The position numbers were made by a program, and so were the translations under genes. This document shows, piece after piece, positions 1 through 12,631 of a DNA stretch of 12,631 nucleotides. Within the stretch, counting starts at the first letter, position 1. Every line of letters starts with the position of its first letter. The notes below the pieces were generated by a model. That model was not told the origin of the DNA, did not search any database, and saw nothing but the letters and a program-made list of their open reading frames with translations. Origin of the DNA: Alphaproteobacteria bacterium (GTDB taxonomy: Bacteria > Pseudomonadota > Alphaproteobacteria > Rs-D84); NCBI GenBank assembly GCA_009782725.1, contig WRIM01000009.1, positions 1 to 12,631 on the forward strand. Reading direction: 5' to 3'.

Positions 1-27
1 CTTGAAACACAAATAGAGGGAAAATGA
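1..27 (+). CDS. 3' end of an upstream gene (partial)
   Basis: The first frame is open from the window edge and ends at a TGA (25-27) that overlaps the next gene's ATG in an ATGA junction. This is a typical translational-coupling arrangement. Only eight residues (LETQIEGK) are visible, so the product cannot be identified from sequence. By context it could be the periplasmic adaptor (MacA/HlyD-like) that usually precedes a MacB-type ATPase/permease pair. Another frame has a stop at 14-16, so the choice of frame is not certain. Confidence 0.3.
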   Translation, partial: LETQIEGK

Positions 28-743
28 AAAACGAACCACCGATAATTTCTTTTAAAAAAATCGATAAATCGTTTCCGCTTGAAATCGGCGGCACGCAACA
101 GGTTTTGTACGGACTTGACTTTGATATCCGCGCGGGCGAATTCGTGTCGATTATGGGGCCTTCGGGTTCCGGAAAATCGACATGCATGAATATTATCGGC
201 GCGTTAGACACGCCGACCGGCGGCACTTATGAGCTTTATGGGAACGACGTCACGCATATGACCCCGGACGAGCTTGCAACAATGCGAAACGAATATATCG
301 GATTTGTGTTTCAAAACTTTAATTTGCTTACCAAGCGCAATGTCTTGGACAATGTGATGCTGCCGTTGATGTATCGGGGGCTTTCCATGGATGAGCGCGT
401 GGCGCGCGCGCGCCGGATGCTTCAACAAGTTGGTCTTGAAAAATTCGAATCATATTTGCCGACGCAGCTTTCCGGCGGAATGCGTCAACGCTGTGCGATC
501 GCGCGCGCTTTGGCGGGCGATCCCAAATTGATTCTGGCGGACGAGCCTACCGGCGCCTTGGACTCTAAAATGGGGCATGATATTTTGACATTCTTTAAGA
601 AATTAAATAAAGAAATGGGCATTACGATTGTGACAATCACGCACGAATTCGATATTGCGAAATTTTCCGACCGCCTTATCCACATCCGCGACGGACGCAT
701 AAATTACGACGGCCCGATACCAAAAGACAACAGGAAATTATAG
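24..743 (+). CDS. ABC transporter ATP-binding protein, MacB/LolD type
   Basis: This is a cytoplasmic ATPase subunit of 239 residues that would power the permease encoded at 1174-2394. All ABC motifs are visible: Walker A GPSGSGKST at 45-53, Q-loop Gln97 in FVFQNFNLL, signature LSGGMRQR at 149-156, Walker B LILADEPTG at 169-177 and H-loop His207. The methionine in LSGGM replaces the more usual glutamine. The NFNLL and DEPTGALD contexts are those of the MacB/LolD/FtsE group, whose members drive export or lipoprotein release by mechanotransmission. A GAGGG ribosome site (16-20) precedes the ATG, which overlaps the upstream stop. The stop codon TAG is the first three bases of a heptamer repeat array (741-775), so the original C-terminus may have been altered by that insertion. 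The substrate is unknown. Confidence 0.93.
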   Translation: MKNEPPIISFKKIDKSFPLEIGGTQQVLYGLDFDIRAGEFVSIMGPSGSGKSTCMNIIGALDTPTGGTYELYGNDVTHMTPDELATMRNEYIGFVFQNFNLLTKRNVLDNVMLPLMYRGLSMDERVARARRMLQQVGLEKFESYLPTQLSGGMRQRCAIARALAGDPKLILADEPTGALDSKMGHDILTFFKKLNKEMGITIVTITHEFDIAKFSDRLIHIRDGRINYDGPIPKDNRKL

Positions 744-775
744 ATAATAGATATTAGATACTAGATAGTAGATAT
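741..775 (+). repeat. Tandem heptamer array TAGATAN x5
   Basis: Five uninterrupted copies of TAGATAN occur, with only the seventh base varying (A, T, C, G, T). Because 7 is not a multiple of 3, TAG falls in all three frames of this strand. The first TAG is the stop codon of the ABC ATPase gene. The inverted partner lies at 1147-1160. Confidence 0.9.
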
Positions 776-789
776 GCGGAGAATAATTA

Positions 790-1161
790 ATGTCCAGAGA
801 TAGCGTAACTCTTGAAAAAAGCAAAAAATTTTCAGCACGGATTATCCGGCTTGATAAATACTTACGTGAGAAAAAATGTGACCGAGCGATATCAAATCAA
901 ATTTTACGATCCGGAACAAGTATCTGCGCCAATTTGTCCGAAGCAATATATGGCATAAGCCGAGGAGACTTTCTTCATAAAACCCATATAGCACTTAAAG
1001 AATGTGCGGAAACTATGCACTGGCTTGAAATGCTGAAAGAATCAGGAGATATTACGTCACGACAGTTTGAAAGCATGAAGGCAGATTGTGAAGAATTGCT
1101 GAAATTATTAATCGCCACAACAAAAACTACTAGAAATAAACTAAAAATATCTAGTATCTAA
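790..1161 (+). CDS. Four-helix-bundle protein (S23/IVP family)
   Basis: This 123-residue, mostly helical protein is of the four-helix-bundle type first known as the product of 23S rRNA intervening sequences. The family hallmarks are present: ILRSGTSICANLSEA at 39-53, then SRGDFLHKTHIALKECAETMHWLEML at about 57-82. Family members form helical bundles and pentamers, and relatives include the Avd accessory protein of diversity-generating retroelements. Their general biochemical role is not established. GGAGAA at 778-783 lies six bases before the ATG. The gene is AT-richer than its neighbours, is inserted between ABC transporter subunits, and has its TAA stop inside the right inverted repeat. No rRNA or reverse transcriptase is nearby, so this is neither an rRNA insertion nor a retroelement here. 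Confidence 0.88.
   Translation: MSRDSVTLEKSKKFSARIIRLDKYLREKKCDRAISNQILRSGTSICANLSEAIYGISRGDFLHKTHIALKECAETMHWLEMLKESGDITSRQFESMKADCEELLKLLIATTKTTRNKLKISSI
1147..1160 (-). repeat. Inverted TAGATAN heptamers x2
   Basis: Two NTATCTA units (N = A, G) on the plus strand are the reverse complement of the TAGATAN array at 741-775. With base 1161 they complete a 14-bp perfect inverted repeat with 754-767. The repeat encodes the last residues (about ISSI) of the four-helix-bundle protein and overlaps its stop codon. Confidence 0.85.
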
Positions 1162-1173
1162 AATGAGGGCTCT

Positions 1174-2394
1174 ATGACATTCAACGATATTCTTAAGGAA
1201 AGTTGGTTATCAATCAGCGGCAATAAAGTACGGTCTTTCCTGACAGTCCTTGGCATTATTATCGGCGTTATGGCGGTCGTGGTCATGATGTCTGTCGGCG
1301 ACGCGGTTCAAAAACAAATTACCGACCAATTCTCAAGTCTTGGCACGAATACGATTATCATTCGCGCGGGCGCCGCGCAAACAGGGGGCGTTCGCACGGG
1401 CGGCATGCGTCAGACTTTGACGCGGCAAAGCGCGGATGCGTTAAGACAATTGCCGGATATATCGGCCGCCGCGCCAATGCGTCAAACCTCGATCCAGGTT
1501 GTGTTCGGAAATCGCAACTGGGGCACCGCGGTTATCGGCACAAATCCGGACTATGCCACCATTCAGAATATTGAAATGGAGCATGGAGTATTCTTTGACC
1601 AATCAGCATTGCGCAATGGCTCTACATTTGCCGTAATCGGGCCAAAGACGGCGAACGAGCTTGATATGCCCATAGACCCCGTGGGTCAGATAATCCGAAT
1701 TAACAACGTCCCATTCGTGGTAATCGGCGTTATGCGAGAACGCGGGGACAGCATGATGGGAAGCCAAGACGACATGGTTATAATCCCGCTTACCACTTTT
1801 ACCAAACGCGTTTGGGGCGGGCGCTTTCCCGATGCCGTGCAAACAATCATGGTGCGCGTTTTCCAAGACGCGGACAATACGCTTGTAACCCAACAAATCA
1901 CGGCAATGCTGCGCGATCGGCATCGTCTGCGCGATGACGAGCCCGACGACTTTCAAATCATGGACATGCGCCAAGTTATGGAGACTATGAATACCATATC
2001 GGGATTTCTTCGCATGCTTTTAATGGCAATCGCATCCGTGTCTTTGTTGGTCGGTTCGATTGGAATTATGAATATGATGTTGGTAAGCGTGGCCGAGCGA
2101 ACGCGCGAGATAGGAATACGCAAAGCCATAGGCGCCAAAGAAACGCATATAACAATCCAATTCTTGTCCGAATCGGTATTGATTTCGTTTATCGGGTCTA
2201 TGGCGGGATTGATACTTGGCATTATATTGTCGCAAACAGTATTGCCGCGCGTTATGGATATGGCCGTGCCATTAAGCATTTGGTCGGTCATACTGTCGAT
2301 TGGCGTTGCGGTAGTCGTTGGAATTTCGTCGGGCGTGATGCCCGCGCGCAAGGCGGCCAAATTGAATCCGATTGACTCGTTGCGGCATGAATAA
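1174..2394 (+). CDS. ABC transporter permease, MacB/FtsX type
   Basis: This 406-residue inner-membrane permease partners the ATPase at 24-743. Its architecture is typical of MacB. A first transmembrane helix lies at about 20-43 (FLTVLGIIIGVMAVVVMMSVG) and is followed by a periplasmic domain at about 44-275. Three C-terminal helices follow at about 278-305, 328-352 and 366-388, with the conserved FtsX elements ERTREIGIRKAIGA and MPARKAAKLNPIDSLR. Such permeases move substrates from the periplasm through a TolC-type channel or act on lipoproteins; the substrate here is unknown. GAGGG (1165-1169) precedes the ATG. The TAA stop shares its last A with the ATG of yidD (TAATG), which suggests coupling. 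It lacks the fused N-terminal ATPase of canonical MacB, so it is a split-gene version. Confidence 0.93.
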   Translation: MTFNDILKESWLSISGNKVRSFLTVLGIIIGVMAVVVMMSVGDAVQKQITDQFSSLGTNTIIIRAGAAQTGGVRTGGMRQTLTRQSADALRQLPDISAAAPMRQTSIQVVFGNRNWGTAVIGTNPDYATIQNIEMEHGVFFDQSALRNGSTFAVIGPKTANELDMPIDPVGQIIRINNVPFVVIGVMRERGDSMMGSQDDMVIIPLTTFTKRVWGGRFPDAVQTIMVRVFQDADNTLVTQQITAMLRDRHRLRDDEPDDFQIMDMRQVMETMNTISGFLRMLLMAIASVSLLVGSIGIMNMMLVSVAERTREIGIRKAIGAKETHITIQFLSESVLISFIGSMAGLILGIILSQTVLPRVMDMAVPLSIWSVILSIGVAVVVGISSGVMPARKAAKLNPIDSLRHE

Positions 2395-2609
2395 TGAAGA
2401 AAACCGCGATATTTTTTATAAAAGTCTACCAATCCGCCCTATCCCCCGTATTCGGTGGAAGATGCGCATGCCGGTTTACGCCAACTTGCAGCGAATACGC
2501 CGCAGCGGCGATAGAAAAGCACGGGGTCGCGCGGGGCGGCTGGATTGCATTAAAAAGGATATCAAGATGTCGTCCGGGGGGCGGGGGCGGGTACGACCCT
2601 ATCCCTTGA
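2394..2609 (+). CDS. yidD: Membrane protein insertion efficiency factor YidD
   Basis: This 71-residue protein has the YidD pattern throughout: YQSALSPVFGG, CRFTPTCSEYAAAAIEKHG, GGWIALKRISRCRP and a closing GGYDPIP. YidD is a small membrane-associated protein that assists YidC-dependent insertion of inner-membrane proteins. In many bacteria it sits between rnpA and yidC. Here it is the last gene behind an ABC permease and overlaps it by one base, so translation is probably coupled. Its TGA stop (2607-2609) overlaps the -35 box of the accBC promoter. The length is normal for the family and nothing looks truncated. Confidence 0.93.
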   Translation: MKKTAIFFIKVYQSALSPVFGGRCACRFTPTCSEYAAAAIEKHGVARGGWIALKRISRCRPGGGGGYDPIP

Positions 2610-2633
2610 CTTCCATGCAATTTCTGGTACAAT
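2606..2633 (+). promoter_or_regulatory. Sigma70-like promoter of accBC
   Basis: TTGACT (2606-2611) and TACAAT (2628-2633) are separated by 16 bases, close to the sigma70 consensus. They lie about 40 bases upstream of accB. The -35 box overlaps the yidD stop codon, so the acc genes begin a new transcription unit. Confidence 0.65.
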
Positions 2634-2672
2634 TTGCGCTATGCTCAAGAGAGAATACTAAAAGGAAACTAA

Positions 2673-3128
2673 ATGTCATCGTATAGTACGATTGAAAAAA
2701 TGTCCAAAATGATGGACAAAATGGGTTTAACCGAATTAAAAATGGAATCCGGATTCTTGTTCGGCATCTGGAAAAAAGAAATCCACCTTTCCAAGCAGCC
2801 TAAAATGGTGGCAAGCCCCCAATTTGCTTCGACGCCGGCGGCGCCTTTGGCCAAGACCAGCTGCGAAGACTCTGCAAATCCGGCCGCGTGCGTTATTAAT
2901 GCGTTAAAATCGCCCATGGTCGGCGTTGTATTCTTGTCCCCGGAACCGGGCGCGGCGCCATTTGTAACGGTCGGTGCAACCGTCAAAGCGGGCGATACCG
3001 TCGCATTGATCGAAGCCATGAAGACTTTCAACCCGGTCAAATCGGAACGCGCCGGCACAGTCAAAGAAATTCTTGTAACCGACGGCCAAGCGGTAGAGTT
3101 CGACACGCCGTTGGTGGTGATCGAGTAA
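2673..3128 (+). CDS. accB: Acetyl-CoA carboxylase biotin carboxyl carrier protein
   Basis: AccB carries biotin between the biotin carboxylase (AccC) and the carboxyltransferase during malonyl-CoA synthesis, the first committed step of fatty acid synthesis. The 151-residue protein has the usual three parts: a helical N-terminal region (1-35), a Pro/Ala-rich linker (about 45-75), and a biotinyl domain (about 78-151) beginning with SPMVGVVF. The biotinylated lysine is Lys117 in EAMKTFN; the family more often has EAMKMMN or EAMKLMN. Conserved glycines and the closing PLVVIE are present. AAAGGAA (2661-2667) is a good ribosome site. accC follows four bases after the stop codon, so the two form an operon. 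Confidence 0.95.
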   Translation: MSSYSTIEKMSKMMDKMGLTELKMESGFLFGIWKKEIHLSKQPKMVASPQFASTPAAPLAKTSCEDSANPAACVINALKSPMVGVVFLSPEPGAAPFVTVGATVKAGDTVALIEAMKTFNPVKSERAGTVKEILVTDGQAVEFDTPLVVIE

Positions 3129-3132
3129 TAAC

Positions 3133-4485
3133 ATGTCAAAAAAAACAATCAAAAAAATACTGATAGCTAATCGGGGCGAGATTGCACTTCGCATTATTCG
3201 CGCGTGCCGCGATATGGGGCTTCGCTCTGTCGCCGTTTATTCCACAGCGGATGCGGACGCGACCCACGTGCATTTGGCCGACGAATCGGTTTGCATCGGG
3301 CCGGCCAAGGCCGCCGAATCATATCTTAATGAATCTGCGATTTTGACCGCGGCTCTTTTAACAAATGCGGACGCGATTCATCCGGGGTACGGATTCTTAT
3401 CCGAACGCGCGGATTTCGTCGAAAAAGTGGAACAGCATAAGTTAATCTGGATCGGGCCGACCGCCCAAATGATTTCCAAAATGGGCGACAAGGTAGAGGC
3501 GAAAAAGACCGCAATTGAATGCGGGCTTCCCGTTGTGCCGGGAAGCGACGGCGCGGTCGACACGTTGGAAGATGCGCTTAAATGGGCCCAGAAAATCGGA
3601 TATCCCGTAATGCTTAAAGCGGCATCGGGCGGCGGCGGCAAGGGAATACGCCCGGTATTGTCCAAAGACGACATGGCCGAGGCTTTTCAAATGACAAAAC
3701 GCGAAGCGTTGGCCGGATTCGGCGACGATACTTTGTATATGGAGAAATTATTGCTTCACCCGCGGCATATAGAGTTTCAGGTTTTGGGCGACCACCATGG
3801 AAACGTCGTGATATTCGGCGAACGCGACTGTTCATTGCAGCGTAAAAACCAAAAAGTCATGGAAGAATGCCCTGCGGCGGCCCTTACCCAGAAACAGCGC
3901 GACGATATGATTGAAATCTGCAAAACGGCCGTGAAGAAAATGGGGTATACGAACGCGGGCACGTTGGAATTCATGTTCGAAGACGGCAAGTTTTATTTCT
4001 TGGAAATGAATACCCGACTCCAAGTCGAACACCCGGTGACAGAAATGGTTTACGGCGTCGATTTGGTGCGCGAGCAAATTCGTGTGGCGCGCGGGGAAGA
4101 ATTGGGATATAGCCAATCCAACCTTGTGCCGAATGGTCACGCAATAGAATTTCGTATTAATGCCGAAGACCCCGAAACTTTTATCCCGAATCCGGGCAAA
4201 ATAACGCAATACTCGGTTCCGGGGGGCCTCGGCATTCGTGTTGATTCCGCCGTGTATCCGGGGTATTCTATTCCGTCGCATTACGACTCTATGATTGCGA
4301 AATTAATCGTTTGGGCGCCGACGCGCACGGCTTGCATTATGCGTTCTATGCGGGCTTTGGATGAATTTGTAATCGAAGGCGTCAAAACAACGATTCCTTT
4401 GCAGCAAAAACTATTAAAGAACAAAGACGTCCGGAATCTTGACATCGACAATCATTGGCTAGAAGAGTTTTTGAAGAACTCGTAG
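3133..4485 (+). CDS. accC: Acetyl-CoA carboxylase biotin carboxylase subunit
   Basis: AccC carboxylates the biotin of AccB using ATP and bicarbonate. The 450-residue length matches the family. Visible elements are the N-terminal biotin carboxylase domain (KILIANRGEIALRIIRA, 8-24), HPGYGFLSE (83-91), the ATP-grasp glycine-rich loop ASGGGGKGI (164-172), HIEFQVLGD (212-220), ERDCSLQRKNQK (230-241), and the catalytic segment EMNTRLQVEHPVTE (291-304) with Arg295 and Glu299. The C-terminal domain follows from about 335. The protein appears complete and functional. The TAG stop (4483-4485) lies inside the left arm of a REP palindrome that separates this gene from the convergent transposase gene. Confidence 0.96.
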   Translation: MSKKTIKKILIANRGEIALRIIRACRDMGLRSVAVYSTADADATHVHLADESVCIGPAKAAESYLNESAILTAALLTNADAIHPGYGFLSERADFVEKVEQHKLIWIGPTAQMISKMGDKVEAKKTAIECGLPVVPGSDGAVDTLEDALKWAQKIGYPVMLKAASGGGGKGIRPVLSKDDMAEAFQMTKREALAGFGDDTLYMEKLLLHPRHIEFQVLGDHHGNVVIFGERDCSLQRKNQKVMEECPAAALTQKQRDDMIEICKTAVKKMGYTNAGTLEFMFEDGKFYFLEMNTRLQVEHPVTEMVYGVDLVREQIRVARGEELGYSQSNLVPNGHAIEFRINAEDPETFIPNPGKITQYSVPGGLGIRVDSAVYPGYSIPSHYDSMIAKLIVWAPTRTACIMRSMRALDEFVIEGVKTTIPLQQKLLKNKDVRNLDIDNHWLEEFLKNS

Positions 4486-4508
4486 GGGCGCATAATTTCG
4501 CCCCCTAC
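4482..4508. repeat. REP palindrome 1, shared 3' ends of accC and RAYT
   Basis: GTAGGGGCG (4482-4490) is mirrored by CGCCCCCTAC (4499-4508), giving a GC-rich hairpin with one extra base in one arm. The TAG of accC (4483-4485) and the TAG of the minus-strand transposase gene (4507-4505) are both within its arms. It may also act as a two-way terminator, although it lacks a clear U-tract. Confidence 0.8.
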
Positions 4509-5131
4509 ATAATCTGATTATAAAACTCATCCAATTGTTTCTGATATAATTTATCAGAATCCCATGTTCGCGGATTGGATTTAATGTAATTCGCAATTTC
4601 ACGATAATCATCATTATCCCGGACAATATGTTCATAATAATTCCGCTGCCAGATTTGTTTTCCGATTTGTTTCGATACGGCCGATTTGAATCCACGAATG
4701 ATATGTGCCAATGTGCCGATTTTATCCCCGGGCCTCAAACCATGGTGGGCGCAATTATGCGCCCCTACAGAGTTTGATTGTTGTGGTAAAAATTCTTCGT
4801 TGGCCGTAAACGTTGTAGGGGCGCATAATTGCGCCCTGCCAGAGCCCATTATTTCAACCGTGGGTTGAATCTCTATGATGAAATGCGAATGATTCGGCAT
4901 GATGACCCATTCGTGCAATTGTGTGCGATTATTACGATTCGGGATTTCCAACAAACAATTTTTAACGATTTTACCAACATTATTCAAAATCATTTCGCCA
5001 TTTTGGATATGGCCGAATATGCATTGTTTTTCATGTGTGCAAATGGTTATGAAATACGCGCCGGGATTCGAATAATCGTATCCGCGTTTTCGAATAGTGC
5101 GACGGTGATGTACGTCTTTATCGAATTTCAT
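4505..5131 (-). CDS. REP-associated tyrosine transposase (RAYT, IS200-like Y1 family)
   Basis: RAYTs are single-copy HUH/Y1 nucleases related to IS200/IS605 TnpA that process REP hairpins. In this 208-residue protein, RGYDYSNPGAYFITICTHEK (residues 16-35) is the typical N-terminus. The metal-binding HxH motif lies in MPNHSHFIIEI (His81, His83). A tyrosine of WQRNYYEH (Tyr165 or Tyr166) is the likely nucleophile, followed by IANYIKSNPRTW. Residues 98-130 are unusual: GRAQLCAPT and VGAHNCAH are translations of two inverted REP copies inside the gene. The frame is intact. No strong ribosome site precedes the ATG. REP palindromes lie at both ends (4482-4508, 5149-5175), and two more pairs of the same family occur in the window. 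Confidence 0.88.
   Translation of the reverse strand: MKFDKDVHHRRTIRKRGYDYSNPGAYFITICTHEKQCIFGHIQNGEMILNNVGKIVKNCLLEIPNRNNRTQLHEWVIMPNHSHFIIEIQPTVEIMGSGRAQLCAPTTFTANEEFLPQQSNSVGAHNCAHHGLRPGDKIGTLAHIIRGFKSAVSKQIGKQIWQRNYYEHIVRDNDDYREIANYIKSNPRTWDSDKLYQKQLDEFYNQIM
4744..4768 (-). repeat. REP palindrome 2, inside the RAYT gene
   Basis: On the minus strand this copy begins with 22 bases identical to those of REP 3 (4815-4840), consensus GTAGGGGCGCATAATTGCGC plus CC. The two copies are inverted with a 46-base loop, forming a REPIN-like doublet. It is translated in frame as VGAHNCAH in the transposase. Confidence 0.85.
4815..4840 (+). repeat. REP palindrome 3, inside the RAYT gene
   Basis: This is the plus-oriented partner of REP 2, with the same 22-base core. 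It encodes GRAQLCAPT in the transposase on the minus strand. Confidence 0.85.
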
Positions 5132-5197: not shown

Positions 5198-8100
5198 CTA
5201 TTCCATCGTGGTCGAGCGGAAGTCGCCGAACATACCGATTTCTTCGGCGCCGATGTAACAGCGGATTTTTTTACCGATATTATCCATCCATTCTTTGGCG
5301 GCTTCTTCGGCGGCCTTGTCCGCGGCGGACTCTTGGGCGTCTTTGACCGCGCGGTTGGTAATGGCATTGAACGCAAGCGCGCCAATCGCCGCCCCACCGA
5401 CATTAACCAATGTTTTACCGCCACCACCGGACCAGAAGTTTCCACTACCTTCTTCGCCTTTAAACGCACCGCATCTATTATTTGAGAGTATCGCTGTCAT
5501 ATTTGCTATGGCATTGGCTGCGGACAAATTAGATACACAAAGAGCGTTGCCATTCGATGCAGTTTTACCCGTGATATAACGAGAATCCCCAACATACGTA
5601 AACCCAGCATTGTTACCTTCCCCATTTATAACCTGCTTTCCTTGCATTGCGCAAAGGGCGCCAGAATCTTGCAACGATGTTATGGCTTTTTCTACTTCAC
5701 CCCGACATACACGTACCCTTTGATCGTTGATGTCATTCGCGGTCTGTCTATTCGTACCGATAAGACTTCCAAAGCCGCCTTTTTGAAGCGCGTTCATACC
5801 CGCCGCGCCGCCCAATGCGCCGACGACCGTTCCGGCCACCGTCGCCCACCTGCGCGTCGTTCCGGCGCCCTTCATTTCGGAAAGATATGTTTCTTCATAG
5901 ACATCTTGCGAAATTCCTTCCAAATCGGCTTGGGGTATCCATGATCCGCAGACAAAGCTGTCCCCCACCGCGAAATTCGTCCGCGACCAATATCCGTCTT
6001 CCAGCCATTTTTTGATGCGCGGATCGGTCGAACGCAATTCCACACGCACGCGACAGAACGAACCGTAAAGGTCATTCGACGCTTGCAGCTGGTTGTCCGA
6101 CAGTCCGAATATCGAATAGTCGTTCGGGACTTTGTTGGATTTCAAACGCGCCCACATGAATGTCGAATACATGTCTTTGTTGCCCATGATTCCGCCAGCA
6201 TTTTCCGCATGGCACATGTTCATCTGACGCGTTAATTTCGCGTTGTATATCGCCTGAGCCTCCAGCTCTAAATCAAATATCAATTGTTGGAATATTTGGT
6301 TTTCGGCCATGCGCACCGCATAGTCGTTATTCGACACCATATACGGTATCGTATACGATTTGATGACTTTGCCGTTTGTATCGCGTATATCGTCCGAACC
6401 GTCGCACCGGCCAAAGTCGGCCAAATTCGACGCATCGGCAAGGCACAGCAACGCGCCGTTGGCGTCCCTCATCTGAACCGTTTCCGTGAACTTTACGTCA
6501 TAGTTCGCAACGCCGCCGTCAAGCCAGCCTTGGCGTGCCGACGTAGCGCCGCCCCATACGCTGTCCCCTTGGGCCGTGGCGTTTTTGATTTTCGCGGTCT
6601 CGACCCGGATATGCTCTTCGCAAGTCTGATTAGTTTTAACCGTATTGATGCAAAGCCCGATTACAATCGCCCGGTCAAGCACGCCCGCAACGCGATTGCC
6701 CGCCGCGCGGTTATCCGGCATGCCGCCGATCGCCGACACTATGTCCGTGCGATTTCTGAAGCAATTCTGGAAATCCGTTCCGCACATATTTTTAACGCAA
6801 GACTGCGCAATCGATTGGCATTGTCTTTTCATGCCTTCTAATGCGGCCGCGCTGAACGAAGTCGCCAAACGCGCATTCAAGGCCGCAACCGCGCCAACCG
6901 GGTCACGAAGGCCTTCGGTCGCAGTCGGGCTTGTGAACAATTTCGCAAATATGCCCGCGTCTTCTTCATACATCAAATGACCGGAACCCGTATCGAACGT
7001 CGCCGCCGCAAACCGGCATGCGATGTCGGAATTCACAACCGCGGCGCATCCCATTTGAATTTCACGAAGCGGTTTGGCTTGGGTTATATCCAATACTTTG
7101 GTCGTTTCATTAAATGCGGACGAATAGCATACGCTTCCCACGCCTTCGCCGCAGTGACGCATCGCGCATTGCACGATTGTGTCAGAACAGCGTGCTTTCT
7201 GGCGCGCGGCGAATTTATCAATCATTTCGTCGATTTTCGCCTTCATGCTGTTGTTAAATCTGGATGCGTACATGTCCGCGAACACGTCTTCTTTGTTTTC
7301 TTCATTGGCAAGTTGCGACGCGGTCGGCATAGAACCCTTGACCGTGGAATAGCAATATCTATTCGCGCCGATTGTATCAAAGCACGCATTCCGTATAAGG
7401 CCTGAAATTTCCGCGCGGTTAACCGGCCCCAAATCATTCGGGGTCGTTACCGTCCAACTTGTCACGGTGGTTGTCGTGGCCGACGCGCCCCCGCGTCCGC
7501 GGCGGCGTCCCGGATTTTCAGAGCCCGTTGTCGCGGTTTCCGTATATTCTTCGACTATGTCGACTATGCTTGAATTCGCGCCTTCTTTACACAGATATGG
7601 ATTCGGAGCGCAAGCCTGTAAGATACAGTTATCGACAACTTTATAACAAGTGGCCACCGCATTCACGGCCGCAAGCGCAGCACCTTCGTCAATCATATCG
7701 CGGATGCGTCCGCCAGATTGCGGATTGGCCGTCACGTCCGTCGTGCCCCAAAGTTCTTTGCGTCCCTCTAATTGGCAACGGGCAAGCGTCGATGAGCAGA
7801 ATACTTTCTGTTTTCTGAATTCGGAATCGGATGTGCAAAGCTCGAAATCCGCGCCGCAAACATCGTCGCGTTTCAAGCATTGGGTATAGCGGCGAACACA
7901 ATCTTGGGTGTTCAAGCGTTGGGAAATCGACGCGCCGACAATCATGCTTCCCAATATGGAATTTTCCGTCGGATAGATAAATACGAACTCGCCGTTGTCG
8001 TCTTTTTCGGTCGTGCTTCTTGTCGCAAGTATGCCGGTGTTATTCGTTCCGTACAATTGATGAATGGCGTTCGACGGGCATGTCAGCAATATGCTGGCAC

Positions 8101-8467
8101 AGCCGGATTTGCGCGCGAAAAATAAAGAATTATTGGTACAGTCTTCGAAATTCGGGCCGCATACTTCGCCGGTTTTCGTACAATCAAGATATGAATCGAT
8201 GCATTCTTTGTCGGTTGTCGTCACAACGCCGCCCGTGGTTCCACCGGTGGTTCCCCCCGGGATATTCGTCACCGGACGAAGTGTCGGCATGCGCGGCCCG
8301 CCTACGCCCGCGACCGGATAAACGCCCAAAGATATTGCCGGACGCGCGGTCGGCGTCGGATTCGGCGATACAAGACCGCCGGTCGCCGCAATTGCCGCGC
8401 CGCCGCAAATAACGGACAGCAACCCGCACAAAGCAAACGTGTTGATTCTTTTGATTAATTTAAACAT
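5198..8467 (-). CDS. Large exported cysteine-rich protein of unknown function
   Basis: I do not recognise a family. The start chosen is the second in-frame ATG: GGAGAAGAG lies just before it, whereas the ATG four codons upstream (8479) has no such site. Numbering from that upstream ATG gives 1093 residues. An export signal lies at about 5-32 (Lys/Arg, hydrophobic core, AIAA). A Pro/Thr/Gly-rich stretch follows at 33-90. Next come cysteine modules: C93/100/107/114/127/134 and C194/201/208/215/228/235 have identical spacing 101 residues apart. Related CxxxxxxC modules start at 278, 431 and 554. Gly/Ala-rich hydrophobic segments lie at about 878-897 and 1024-1040, and an Ala/Glu/Lys helix at 1044-1075. 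It may be periplasmic or surface-located with disulfide-linked helices. A promoter-like sequence precedes it. Confidence 0.85.
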   Translation of the reverse strand: MFKLIKRINTFALCGLLSVICGGAAIAATGGLVSPNPTPTARPAISLGVYPVAGVGGPRMPTLRPVTNIPGGTTGGTTGGVVTTTDKECIDSYLDCTKTGEVCGPNFEDCTNNSLFFARKSGCASILLTCPSNAIHQLYGTNNTGILATRSTTEKDDNGEFVFIYPTENSILGSMIVGASISQRLNTQDCVRRYTQCLKRDDVCGADFELCTSDSEFRKQKVFCSSTLARCQLEGRKELWGTTDVTANPQSGGRIRDMIDEGAALAAVNAVATCYKVVDNCILQACAPNPYLCKEGANSSIVDIVEEYTETATTGSENPGRRRGRGGASATTTTVTSWTVTTPNDLGPVNRAEISGLIRNACFDTIGANRYCYSTVKGSMPTASQLANEENKEDVFADMYASRFNNSMKAKIDEMIDKFAARQKARCSDTIVQCAMRHCGEGVGSVCYSSAFNETTKVLDITQAKPLREIQMGCAAVVNSDIACRFAAATFDTGSGHLMYEEDAGIFAKLFTSPTATEGLRDPVGAVAALNARLATSFSAAALEGMKRQCQSIAQSCVKNMCGTDFQNCFRNRTDIVSAIGGMPDNRAAGNRVAGVLDRAIVIGLCINTVKTNQTCEEHIRVETAKIKNATAQGDSVWGGATSARQGWLDGGVANYDVKFTETVQMRDANGALLCLADASNLADFGRCDGSDDIRDTNGKVIKSYTIPYMVSNNDYAVRMAENQIFQQLIFDLELEAQAIYNAKLTRQMNMCHAENAGGIMGNKDMYSTFMWARLKSNKVPNDYSIFGLSDNQLQASNDLYGSFCRVRVELRSTDPRIKKWLEDGYWSRTNFAVGDSFVCGSWIPQADLEGISQDVYEETYLSEMKGAGTTRRWATVAGTVVGALGGAAGMNALQKGGFGSLIGTNRQTANDINDQRVRVCRGEVEKAITSLQDSGALCAMQGKQVINGEGNNAGFTYVGDSRYITGKTASNGNALCVSNLSAANAIANMTAILSNNRCGAFKGEEGSGNFWSGGGGKTLVNVGGAAIGALAFNAITNRAVKDAQESAADKAAEEAAKEWMDNIGKKIRCYIGAEEIGMFGDFRSTTME

Positions 8468-8470
8468 TCT

Positions 8471-8477
8471 CTTCTCC
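8471..8477 (-). promoter_or_regulatory. Ribosome binding site deciding the start of the large gene
   Basis: On the minus strand, GGAGAAG lies four to five bases before the ATG at 8467. It sits between two in-frame ATGs (8479 and 8467) and so supports the downstream one. Confidence 0.7.
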
Positions 8478-8498
8478 ATATTATGGATTCAATGATTA

Positions 8499-9014: not shown

Positions 9015-9049
9015 CAGATACTAGATACTATATATTAGATAGTAGATAT
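9015..9049 (+). repeat. Heptamer array TAGATAN x5 (left arm)
   Basis: There are five consecutive 7-mers. Four match TAGATAN with at most one change, and the middle one has drifted to TATATAT. They are inverted relative to 9117-9151. Confidence 0.85.
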
Positions 9050-9060
9050 TTAAACATGAG

Positions 9061-9080
9061 TTGTCCATTATATTCGACAA
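9061..9080. promoter_or_regulatory. Imperfect 20-bp dyad, operator-like copy 1
   Basis: TTGTCCATTATATTCGACAA is nearly identical to the perfect palindrome at 9093-9112, with 18 of 20 bases the same and start points 32 bases (about three helical turns) apart. On the plus strand, TTGTCC followed after 16 bases by TATAAT (9083-9088) also resembles a promoter. Confidence 0.55.
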
Positions 9081-9092
9081 TCTATAATTTAC

Positions 9093-9112
9093 TTGTCCAA
9101 TATATTGGACAA
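9093..9112. promoter_or_regulatory. Perfect 20-bp palindrome, operator-like copy 2
   Basis: TTGTCCAATATATTGGACAA is identical to its reverse complement. Its size and symmetry suit a dimeric DNA-binding protein, but it could equally be a structural part of the repeat element. The cognate protein is unknown. Confidence 0.6.
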
Positions 9113-9116
9113 CAAT

Positions 9117-9151
9117 TTATCTAATATCTACTATCTAATATCTAGTATCTT
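9117..9151 (-). repeat. Heptamer array TAGATAN x5 (right arm)
   Basis: On the minus strand the units read aagatac, tagatat, tagatag, tagatat, tagataa. The first overlaps the TAA stop of recF (9152-9150). Confidence 0.88.
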
Positions 9152-10220
9152 ATTTATCATAAACGCAACCGTTTTCACAATAGATAAATTTCGAATTCGA
9201 AATGCCATTGAAAGATTCGCGCTCTAACCCCGTCATCCAAACTTGGGACTCTATGGCGTCAAGTTCCGCGAACAATGCCGCCCGCGCCTCTTTGTCTAAA
9301 TGCGCCGCAACTTCGTCCAATAAAATCAACACGGGCGCGGATGCGCGCGCGCGCAACAATTTCGCATGAGACAAAACAAGACGCATTAATGCGGATTTTT
9401 GCTGACCCGTGCTTGTCATCGCAACGGGCATGGCAAGCACATTATTAATCATTCCAAAATCCGCCCTGTGCGGGCCGTCGATGCTCATTTTATCGCCGAT
9501 TAATTCGCGGTTCTTTGATAAATATTCCAAATATTCAGAACCCGCATCGGCGGCGGAAATCGCGTTCGCCAATTTTTCTTCCAACATGCCGGATATTGTT
9601 ATCGAATAATCGTCGCCCAAGAAATAATTGATTTCTCCCGCGTATTTGACGCGCGCGGCGGCGACGCTTATCGCTGTGTCGGACAATTGACGTTCAAGCG
9701 CGGCCAACCACCCGGGATTAGCACCAGATTTCAACGCAAACGCGCGTTCGGATAAAAGTTTGGAAAGCCGTATAACGCGCCCCGTATGCGCCGTATCAAA
9801 CCCGGAAACAAGGCGGTCGAAAAACGCGCGCCGGTCGGATGCGCTGTCTACGAAAAGCCTGTCCTCGCGCGGGGTGATCCAAACCATGCGGATGTGCCGA
9901 GACAGGTCGGAAATCGGCGCGGCATCGCTGTCTATGCGCGCGCGGCGCTTTGCATCCGTTAGCTCGAACGATACGGATAATTCGGTATCGTTTTGCAAAA
10001 CCACGGTGACGCCGAATTGCCCGGCGCCGCCGATACGCACGATGTCGGGTGGGGCCGCGCCGCGTAATGACCCGGATGCGGATATCGCGCTTAGCGCTTC
10101 TAAAACAGACGTCTTGCCGCCGCCGTTCGGGCCGTACAGCACGATATTTTTCGCGCTGTCTATTTTAATCCGACTGCATTCATGGTTTCTGAAATCGCAA
10201 ATGGTAAGGGTTTGAATCAT
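9150..10220 (-). CDS. recF: DNA replication and repair protein RecF
   Basis: RecF is an SMC-like ATPase that works with RecO and RecR to load RecA at gaps. The 356-residue length is normal. Walker A GPNGGGKT lies at 30-37 and is preceded by FRNHE, typical of RecF. SDRRAFFDRLVSGFD (128-142) is the conserved arm region and GPHRADF (249-255) is typical. The ABC-type signature STGQQKSALM lies at 270-279, Walker B LILLDE at 298-303 and the D-loop AHLD at 306-309. The ATG has no clear ribosome site. The gene follows tRNA-Cys on the same strand and is not next to dnaN here. Its stop codon abuts a heptamer array. Confidence 0.95.
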   Translation of the reverse strand: MIQTLTICDFRNHECSRIKIDSAKNIVLYGPNGGGKTSVLEALSAISASGSLRGAAPPDIVRIGGAGQFGVTVVLQNDTELSVSFELTDAKRRARIDSDAAPISDLSRHIRMVWITPREDRLFVDSASDRRAFFDRLVSGFDTAHTGRVIRLSKLLSERAFALKSGANPGWLAALERQLSDTAISVAAARVKYAGEINYFLGDDYSITISGMLEEKLANAISAADAGSEYLEYLSKNRELIGDKMSIDGPHRADFGMINNVLAMPVAMTSTGQQKSALMRLVLSHAKLLRARASAPVLILLDEVAAHLDKEARAALFAELDAIESQVWMTGLERESFNGISNSKFIYCENGCVYDK

Positions 10221-10479: not shown

Positions 10480-10507
10480 GTAGGGGCGCATATTTGCGCC
10501 CGCATAG
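10480..10507 (+). repeat. REP palindrome 5
   Basis: Its first 22 bases (GTAGGGGCGCATATTTGCGC plus CC) are identical to the reverse complement of REP 6 (10553-10574). They differ from REP 2/3 by one base. Together with REP 6 it forms a REPIN-like inverted doublet upstream of tRNA-Cys. Confidence 0.85.
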
Positions 10508-10552
10508 TTTGGCATTTGGGATAAGATTTTCGACAGAAAACAAATAATGAAA

Positions 10553-10574
10553 GGGCGCAAATATGCGCCCCTAC
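10553..10574 (-). repeat. REP palindrome 6
   Basis: This is the inverted partner of REP 5, with a 22 of 22 base match. It lies just downstream of the Yip1-like gene and could also act as a hairpin at its 3' end. Confidence 0.85.
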
Positions 10575-10596
10575 AAGATTTTCCAAATTTAAATCA

Positions 10597-11293: not shown

Positions 11294-12631
11294 ATGCCAA
11301 AGATTGCGATTGTTGGACGGCCTAATACCGGGAAATCGACGCTTTTTAACGCGCTGACCGGGACGCGGGATGCGTTGGTTCACGACCGGCCTGGGGTGAC
11401 GCGCGACGTTGTCGGCGGCATTGTGCGAGGGATTGGCGAACAAATAACGATTTTCGATACCGCCGGGTTAGAGAAAACAAAAACGGGCGTCGCGCATATG
11501 GCGACGGCAAAAACGCTTGATGCAATTCGGGATGCGGATGCGGTTTTGTTTGTGGTCGACGGACGTGCGGGACTCACCGCCGAAGATTTGGAATGGGCAA
11601 AGACCGTCAGAAAATCCGGGACGAAAAAACCGATTCTTTTATTGGCGAATAAACTTGAATCGCAAAAACGCGCGGGCGATTTGCCAGAATTTCATAAACT
11701 TGGATTCGGCGCGCCGACCGCGATAAGCGCGGAACATAAAATGGGGCTGGACAAGATTTACGAATGGTTGGAACAATTATCAAAGTGCAAAGTGCAAAGT
11801 TCAAATAAAGATGAATCTAACATTGAACATTGCACTTTGAACTTTGAACATTCACGCGAAGCGCAGCTTCGCGTGGCGATTATGGGCCAACCGAATGTTG
11901 GAAAATCAACCTTGGTTAATAAAATATTGGGGGAGAATCGCGTGATTGTGCGCGATGAACCCGGCGTAACGCGCGATACTATTAATATAAAGACAAAGGC
12001 TTTGGGGCGCGAATTCACGATTGTCGACACGGCGGGACTTCGCAGAAAGTCTGGCATTACGGATGATGTGGAAACGCTTGCCGCGCTTAAATCTTTGGAC
12101 GCGCTTAGCAAATCCGATATTGTAATATTGGTTGTGGATGCCACCGGGAATATTGAAAATCAAGCTCTTGGAATCGCGGGCCGCGTATATGACGCCGGAA
12201 AAATTCTTTGCATAGCTTTGAACAAATGGGATTTGGTGCATGTTAATGAACGTGATACAAAATTAAAGAAATTGGTCGCGCAGTTTAATCGTTCTTTCTC
12301 GCAAATTATAGACCCGTTGATTTTGCCAATCTCGGCCGAAAAAGGCACCGGAGTCAGAAACATTTTAAAACGCGTTTTTGAACTGTGGGATATATCGAAT
12401 AAAAGAATGCCGACTTCATTAATCAACCGCATCGTGGAAAAATTGGTCGAAGCGCATCAACCGCCGATGTCGCGCGTTGGCCGCCGCATGAAAATAAAAT
12501 TCAGCAGTCAAACGCGCACCCACCCAATCGTAGTAACAATTAATGTAGGCGGCGCATCTGATTTCCCGGAATCATATACGCGGTATCTTCGCCGCGGAAT
12601 CGCCAAAGCATTAAAGTGGGAGCAATTGCCG
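11294..12631 (+). CDS. der: Ribosome-assembly GTPase Der/EngA (3' end outside window)
   Basis: Der is an essential GTPase with two tandem G domains that acts in 50S subunit maturation. There are 446 codons without a stop before the window ends, so only a short C-terminal tail is missing. G domain 1 has GRPNTGKST (8-16), DTAG (55-58) and NKLE (119-122). G domain 2 has GQPNVGKST (198-206), DTAG (245-248) and NKWD (310-313). A KH-like domain follows from about 370. Residues about 163-187 of the interdomain linker are encoded by an inverted heptamer array (11782-11849), and the next residues by a short palindrome. The frame is preserved. The ATG at 11294 starts exactly at the conserved N-terminus PKIAIVGRPN. 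Confidence 0.95.
   Translation, partial: MPKIAIVGRPNTGKSTLFNALTGTRDALVHDRPGVTRDVVGGIVRGIGEQITIFDTAGLEKTKTGVAHMATAKTLDAIRDADAVLFVVDGRAGLTAEDLEWAKTVRKSGTKKPILLLANKLESQKRAGDLPEFHKLGFGAPTAISAEHKMGLDKIYEWLEQLSKCKVQSSNKDESNIEHCTLNFEHSREAQLRVAIMGQPNVGKSTLVNKILGENRVIVRDEPGVTRDTINIKTKALGREFTIVDTAGLRRKSGITDDVETLAALKSLDALSKSDIVILVVDATGNIENQALGIAGRVYDAGKILCIALNKWDLVHVNERDTKLKKLVAQFNRSFSQIIDPLILPISAEKGTGVRNILKRVFELWDISNKRMPTSLINRIVEKLVEAHQPPMSRVGRRMKIKFSSQTRTHPIVVTINVGGASDFPESYTRYLRRGIAKALKWEQLP
11782..11849. repeat. Inverted heptamer array GTKCAAA inside der
   Basis: Three tandem heptamers (11785-11805: GTGCAAA, GTGCAAA, GTTCAAA) face four inverted ones (11822-11849; on the minus strand GTTCAAA, GTTCAAA, GTGCAAT, GTTCAAT). 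The arms can pair over about 23 bases with two mismatches around an 18-base loop. The array is translated without a frame break as the linker between the Der G domains. Confidence 0.85.
11853..11875. repeat. Perfect 9-bp inverted repeat inside der
   Basis: CACGCGAAG (11853-11861) and CTTCGCGTG (11867-11875) have a five-base loop. The palindrome directly follows the heptamer array and encodes SREAQLRV at the end of the linker and the start of G domain 2. Confidence 0.75.

Follow-up and report, generated by a model that had tools for sequence, protein, structure and literature searches.

Evidence for a small mobile element built from an IVP four-helix-bundle gene and inverted short-period repeat arrays

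Genes of the S23/IVP family, which encode small four-helix-bundle proteins, lie between inverted arrays of short repeats, and it is strongly supported that gene and arrays together define a small mobile element. The copy from which this analysis starts is found in a stretch of 12,631 nucleotides (the window; contig WRIM01000009.1) from a 723-kb draft genome, about 79% complete, of an Alphaproteobacteria bacterium (assembly GCA_009782725.1). At otherwise matching plasmid sites, units of this build, about 420 bp long, are either there or missing as a whole. Movement as DNA is likely, with IVP, which is predicted to bind the heptamers at both ends, bringing these ends together. A preliminary description of the window had proposed a mobile unit with heptamer ends; this proposal is supported by empty alleles and by inverted period-7 flanks at other IVP genes.

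The element in the window

The IVP gene lies, as had been described, between genes for an ABC transporter ATPase and a permease (Table 1), and it is the only gene between the arms. Heptamer arrays flank it on both sides, again as described: the left arm has its five TAGATAN units, and the right arm is inverted, with only about two. The 14-bp inverted core is exact, positions 754-767 (TTAGATACTAGATA) and 1148-1161 (TATCTAGTATCTAA) being perfect reverse complements. The ATPase gene takes its stop codon (TAG, 741-743) from the first unit of the left array, and the IVP gene takes its own from the right arm. Folded as RNA, the element has a z score of -2.5, with 1 of 100 shuffles equally good. The relatives of this copy are too diverged to date its arrival.

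Table 1. Coordinates of the IVP element, its neighbours and other heptamer elements in the window
Feature	Position	Strand	Remarks
ABC transporter ATPase gene	24..743	+	upstream flank
Left arm	741..775	+	five TAGATAN heptamers, in order TAGATAA, TAGATAT, TAGATAC, TAGATAG, TAGATAT
S23/IVP four-helix-bundle gene	790..1161	+	123 aa; PF05635 84.8 bits, TIGR02436 92.7 bits
Right arm	1147..1161	-	about two inverted heptamers; overlaps IVP stop codon
MacB-type permease gene	1174..2394	+	downstream flank
Gene-less copy, first arm	9016..9049	+	arm nearest sspB
Gene-less copy, second arm	9116..9151	-	directly after recF stop codon
Third heptamer element, gene-less	11778..11858		CAAAGTG units inverted to CACTTTG; in frame within der/engA

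Inverted arrays at IVP genes in general

A search with PF05635 gave matches at 79 places in 27 of 100 genomes, that of the window included. Seventy-eight of these places (the other being the second piece of one gene) were joined with the best 80 of at least 581 loci from named genomes, and 155 of the resulting 158 loci were analysed, three being dropped for short flanks. The 80 named-genome loci come from Bacteroidota, Omnitrophota, Patescibacteria, Planctomycetes, Nitrospira, Acidobacteriota, Atribacterota, Anaerolineaceae, several proteobacterial groups and ANME-1 archaea. Left and right flanks show inverted complementarity (score of at least 12) at 133 of the 155 loci; when partners are swapped, this falls to 2 of 155. 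Period-7 inverted arrays are strongly enriched around other family members. An arm with a period score of at least 16 is found at 133 of the 155 loci, compared with 53 of 1091 control windows, and 146 of the 155 pass a combined test (arm at least 16 or inverted score at least 14).

The period is 7 in 182 and 8 in 27 of the 222 arms scoring at least 16, and it is identical in both arms at 82 of 89 loci. For period-calling, and for the comparison of heptamers with proteins, 29 of the 155 loci that fell below the period threshold were left out; among the 126 clearest loci the period is 7 in 106, 8 in 15, 6 in 3 and 9 in 2. L215, the ANME-1 locus whose flanks could be used, has a period of 8. Of 369 gammaproteobacterial genomes, 76 show a match, and an arm scoring at least 16 is present at 33 of 39 loci read from them (25/29 and 8/10), nearly all with period 7. 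All 17 plasmid loci have such an arm. A single query of 50,697 phage records returned no IVP.

The anatomy of the element was read from 111 loci with both arms clear, 44 of the 155 being left out. The outer length has a median of 447 bp, and the arms have a median of 4.7 units on the left (120 arms) and 4.6 on the right (117 arms). At 100 loci with an upstream co-oriented open reading frame (ORF) of at least 90 codons, its stop codon lies at a median of -1 nt from the start of the array, and within 10 nt in 75, a proximity that short operon gaps alone could explain. At one locus (L083, G004:C2) the IVP reading frame continues through the right array and runs on into prepilin-like sequence downstream, so that the fused ORF has 274 aa.

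Empty and filled sites

Among 30 loci of relatives read at the ATPase/permease junction, 12 are empty (-4 to 41 bp), 5 have an IVP gene or its remnant, 2 have gene-less arrays, 8 have 644-1062 bp of other DNA, and 3 are without the ATPase or an element in view; L140 is visible at its right end only, and the ATPase is also out of view in L118 and L139. Empty alleles thus exist at this junction, and closely related plasmids provide clean present/absent sites. Four of the five IVP-filled junctions are of the TAGATAN type, the other (L124, in G008) having a distant IVP with ATTTAAG units. The subfamily of IVP differs at one junction (L004/L096 versus L114), and some IVP genes carry internal stops. 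The ATPase/permease junction may be a general insertion hot spot. The eight loci with other DNA are L117, L119-L122, L134, L137 and L141. At a nuclease/plsC site in another genus, L063 has an IVP gene, 10 of 29 loci have 1-51 bp, and L150 and L158 have gene-less arrays.

Cyanobacterial plasmids whose flanks are 89-99.7% identical have the element present or absent as a block of 418-423 bp that ends at the arrays. Nostoc pC052_D and pNsp_a have one junction filled and the next empty, while pNsp_c has the reverse; the filled and empty sites of L262/L263 and L428 are reciprocal, with 418-419 bp. In Trichormus plasmid C (L264), compared with L434/L435 across flanks that are 97-98% identical, a 423-bp insert lies between two copies of GTAAT, of which the empty site has one. 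Homology between L262, L264 and L265 (79-83% identity over about 420 bp) covers the element only, the flanks being unrelated, and is similarly limited between L056 and L063. Insertion sites include the cas6/cas4 and cas10/cmr3 junctions and nrdB-nrdA; the cas10/cmr3 junction is empty in PCC 7002. The IVP genes of CRISPR operons (L260, L267 and L427) lie at cas6/cas4 of type I-D, in two genera, and at cas10/cmr3 of type III-B.

One element, L061, lies within a 23S rRNA gene (Rfam large subunit (LSU) match 184-3324, 2457 bits), at about LSU position 1157, which we take by reckoning to be the helix-45 region. Its arms consist of AGAGGTC, AGAGATC, AGAAATC and AGATATC, inverted on the opposite side. 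It was the sole match when four 23S motifs were scanned over 445 loci. On the strength of this locus, the intervening sequences (IVSs) of rRNA look like instances of the element that landed in rRNA.

Gene-less copies

The genome of the window has four IVP genes, all between inverted period-7 arms and each with its own heptamer (TAGATAN, AACTAAC, GTRAGGC and TAGTAAG). Perfect three-unit TAGATAN matches, taken genome-wide, mark eight elements, namely that of the window and seven gene-less inverted pairs of 71-149 bp. Six of the eight have both arms perfect; at 9016-9151 one arm is mismatched, and the right arm of the window's IVP element is too short to match. A weaker gene-less TAGATAN pair is found on C44. 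When up to 3 mismatches were allowed, a backwards-pattern control gave 42 matches against 59 for TAGATAN, and loose matches alone are therefore weak evidence.

The gene-less recurrence of the arrays that had been reported at 9015-9151 is real, and the hairpin at 9015-9152, folded as RNA, has a z score of -11.0 with none of 200 shuffles equally good. The recF/sspB site is empty, with a gap of at most 11 bp, in 18 of the 22 loci in which the two genes are adjacent (30 read). In this genome, and at one site in G004, gene-less copies carry the heptamer of the resident IVP: at the ATPase/permease junction of G004, the gene-less L125 has AAGTTAT, as does L089, the IVP gene resident in G004. An inner palindrome type, TTGTCCAATATATTGGACAA, is common to three gene-less TAGATAN elements (window 9059-9112, and C6 and C34, which are L036 and L038) and was not seen in the gene-bearing copy.

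The third heptamer element of the window occupies the linker joining the two GTPase domains of der/engA; in the best PDB match (3j8g) this linker is no shorter, so that the element need not have added residues. The window also has a gene (4482-5131) for a Y1 transposase resembling a repetitive extragenic palindrome (REP)-associated tyrosine transposase (RAYT), which scores below its NCBIfam cut-off; REP-type hairpins (GTAGGGGCGCATANTTGCGCCC) lie around this gene and 5 kb away (10480-10575). A 1093-aa ORF on the minus strand (5198-8479) has no Pfam or NCBIfam match at E 0.001.

The IVP protein and its heptamers

The AlphaFold2 (AF2) model of IVP has a predicted local distance difference test (pLDDT) score of 94.8. 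The nearest solved folds to the monomer are 2rld (BT_0352 of Bacteroides thetaiotaomicron) and 2gsc (Xcc0516 of Xanthomonas), each of five chains, followed by the Avd protein of diversity-generating retroelements (DGRs). No recombinase or nuclease is among the 50 fold matches listed, which excludes nothing, and Pfam, NCBIfam and fold comparisons gave no recognised recombinase fold. Six polar residues are 97-100% conserved over 184 domains, with Q37, R40, S44, N48 and E51 on helix 2 and E74 on helix 3.

Variation within arrays is concentrated in fixed columns of the unit (5233 versus 4138 +/- 48), as expected if a protein reads part of each unit. Heptamer sequence is weakly correlated with protein sequence (Mantel r -0.119, a value lower than in any of 999 permutations). 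Between L100 (AGAGTNN) and L102 (AGAGTNNN) the change in unit length runs through the repeats of both arms, and the arms thus seem to be homogenised. These two loci have periods of 7 and 8, respectively, despite 78% protein identity, and the idea that protein lineage sets the period was rejected as holding weakly at best.

How the element may move

IVP is likely the factor that binds the ends, and in recognising the heptamers it would also be what drives the movement. The protein is predicted to bind the heptamers of both ends and to bring the ends together. It would work as a pentamer, with each arm as its binding platform; a pentamer is suggested because Xcc0516 has been reported to be a homopentamer, both solved relatives have five chains and the arms have a median of 4.6-4.7 units. 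With the arm as a binding platform, heptamer and protein would coevolve. The target would receive a staggered cut leaving a 5-bp duplication, as the one clean case suggests, and the leading guess for strand transfer is a host nuclease or polymerase recruited by IVP, the alternative chemistry being that of IVP's own invariant polar face. Landing sites would likely be the survivable ones: intergenic positions next to stop codons, and loops of rRNA, from which RNase III is reported to cut out the transcribed hairpin of IVSs (PMC4990558). Gene-less copies would arise via internal deletion. It is conceivable, if doubtful, that the recombinase is IVP, which would then be of a new kind; as a pentamer of four-helix bundles with an invariant polar site, it would read its own repeat by period and unit and carry out strand transfer without a known catalytic fold. 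Insertion at hairpin tips, which rRNA loops and the GGGAAAA...TTTTCCC sequences flanking the C20 copy had suggested, was rejected, as complementarity between the flanks beyond the arms does not stand out from swapped controls (3.31 versus 3.24, n=111).

Several observations weigh against a mobile element moved by IVP. The period is 7 in 32 of the 53 positive control windows, and inverted complementarity of at least 12 occurs without a period array in 9 of the 10 Avd copies of one genome (G614, described below), so that it is not specific alone. Five genomes (G104, G107, G113, G121 and G123) match array queries with no IVP gene shown, and no near-identical IVP copies inside one genome were found among the loci compared. 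The GTAAT duplication is the one clean case; the 111 loci as a population show no such signal (3.35 versus 3.32 for swapped flanks). TTCTA is possibly duplicated in L263/L428, yet these bases may belong to the arm or end of the element, and at four other plasmid sites 11-32 bp of target has been replaced, with no duplication. The correlation between heptamer and protein is weak, and that between period and protein marginal (99 of 126 nearest neighbours against a permutation mean of 90.9, a count reached in 37 of 1000 permutations). The full length of the locus is matched without a break by 46 of 148 Chryseobacterium genomes, by a hand count of the matches listed; of 20 ‘empty’ sites read, most keep array remnants by eye, and L336-L338 retain the end of the IVP gene. 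These remnants point to an old insertion with repeated internal deletion, which would explain the gene-less copies. As most of its sites look like internal deletions, Chryseobacterium was rejected as a source of pre-insertion sites.

Alternative explanations

Movement might instead pass through RNA, with an Avd-like IVP presenting the hairpin RNA of the element to a reverse transcriptase (RT) supplied elsewhere, for example by a DGR, and the cDNA being inserted. This is rather unlikely. RT is absent from 12 of the 27 IVP-positive genomes, among them G011, G024, G052, G055, G081 and G087, which are 93-100% complete; RT was therefore rejected as a required partner. Such enrichment of RT as there is may reflect just general mobile-element load, and Q37, R40, S44 and E51, invariant in IVP, differ in the one Avd compared. 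A further suggestion is that an unrelated transposase acts on the ends, with IVP as cargo or regulator. The lack of a recognised recombinase fold in IVP and the existence of gene-less copies agree with this, as does the 5-bp target duplication, which is typical of many DDE transposases. However, one would expect ends served by a transposase in trans to be of a single sequence, whereas here the sequence varies by element and tracks the protein while the period is fixed, and the association of gene and arms holds at most loci in many phyla. Y1 transposases, the family searched for, match in 3 of the 27 IVP-positive genomes, and Y1/RAYT was rejected as the partner. We consider it distinctly improbable that IVP is such a passenger.

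It is equally hard to credit that the unit is a resident regulatory cassette, selected and mostly vertical, whose hairpin and RNA-binding protein tune operon transcripts. Its operon-like junctions, the closeness of upstream stop codons to the array start and its vertical persistence in Chryseobacterium would fit, as would the Xanthomonas GGGAATC repeats, 90% of which lie between the same genes in two species (PMC4692102, from the part available). Against this stand the clean empty sites, homology confined to the element, differing IVP subfamilies at one junction, internal stops and the insertion in 23S rRNA. Many bacterial genomes have an excess of heptamer repeats (PMC4679880 and PMC4692102), and slippage could in principle produce them anywhere, with the link to IVP accidental; this is contradicted by the inverted arms, rare with swapped partners, and by the low frequency of periodic arrays in control windows, and can be given almost no credence.

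Significance

The element as a class was not described in the literature searched, bioRxiv and most subscription journals lying outside its coverage; IVS elements with the same gene are already known in rRNA. One frame would now hold rRNA IVSs, whose S23 ORF has been without a role, the widespread ‘four helix bundle protein’ genes and the unexplained heptamer repeats of Xanthomonas, Nostoc and others. If this is true, an element whose end repeats are constant in spacing and variable in sequence, and which lacks a known recombinase, would transpose or have its ends recognised in a new way, and would be categorically new if IVP itself catalyses movement. As a recombinase, IVP would be the engine of a transposon class extending over bacteria and archaea, with 23S IVSs and many orphan heptamer repeats as its products. 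How IVSs spread, a question decades old, becomes directly testable in laboratory strains.

Comparison with known systems

Unlike the Avd gene of a DGR, the IVP gene of the window is not beside a template repeat or RT, its neighbours being ABC transporter genes; its genome, about 79% complete, has no RVT_1 match. Of the six invariant IVP residues, five are different in the Avd compared, the alignment at E74 being uncertain, and a period array scoring at least 16 is found at none of the ten Avd copies of G614, in contrast to IVP. This 1.5-Mb gammaproteobacterial genome has ten near-identical Avd-like genes with shared flanks (L377-L386), spanning about 220 kb if the contig is circular; from their sequence these are apparently DGR cassettes. 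G614 had been the best candidate for recent multi-copy spread within one genome, and was rejected when its genes proved Avd-like. An apparent DGR at L062 (1483-3308) has an IVP element next to it, placed between the RT and a candidate target gene; the LTSQ motif of this RT is presumably a DGR sign.

Miniature inverted-repeat transposable elements (MITEs), and REPINs with their RAYT, resemble IVP elements in having short inverted repeats and gene-less copies presumably moved in trans. In IVP elements, unlike these, it is mainly the period that is kept from one element to the next, and not the end sequence. As to MITEs and other insertion sequence (IS) derivatives, no fixed terminal inverted repeats are common with a transposase-bearing element, and the ends vary. 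The arms are not GTAG-type REP ends but TAGATAN heptamers, the RAYT-like gene and REP units lying elsewhere in the window. The ends of Mu and Tn7 are arrays of protein-binding sites, with longer sites, DDE transposases and a 5-bp target duplication. The IVP element is similar in its arrays at both ends and in the 5-bp duplication, but it encodes no DDE transposase.

Heptameric simple repeats have been described as GGGAATC in Xanthomonas and GGGGA(T/C)T in Nostoc (PMC4692102, part available) and as TAACTGA in Beggiatoaceae (PMC4679880, part available). Like the arrays of the window they are intergenic, and those of Xanthomonas mostly have four units, with 70-75 cases of inverted pairs (PMC4692102). 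They are likely the gene-less form of the IVP element. The available part of PMC4692102 reads its arrays as quadruplex-forming repeats and does not mention four-helix proteins, S23 or xcc0516; that of PMC4679880 considers regulatory roles, and mobility too, with no mention of four-helix proteins, intervening sequences or 23S.

There is also a close likeness to the 23S IVS, of which L061, with its heptamer arms, is a case. In Coxiella burnetii the IVS is 428 nt long, contains an S23p ORF and has inverted ends that form a stem, with two to three tandem GACAGAT heptamers, variable in number between strains, 5' of the ORF; rRNA IVSs are excised from the transcript by RNase III, and the idea that the IVS is a former mobile element is cited there (PMC4990558, part available). 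Fixed-period, element-specific inverted arrays, clean empty sites and heptamer-matched gene-less copies are not given as a general rule for IVSs in the available part of that paper. The window element does not belong to rRNA: it is intergenic, between ABC ATPase and permease genes, and the single Rfam match of the window at gathering threshold is a tRNA. Its build is shared with the IVS, the two being alike in protein family, size, inverted stem-forming ends and the S23/IVP ORF inside.
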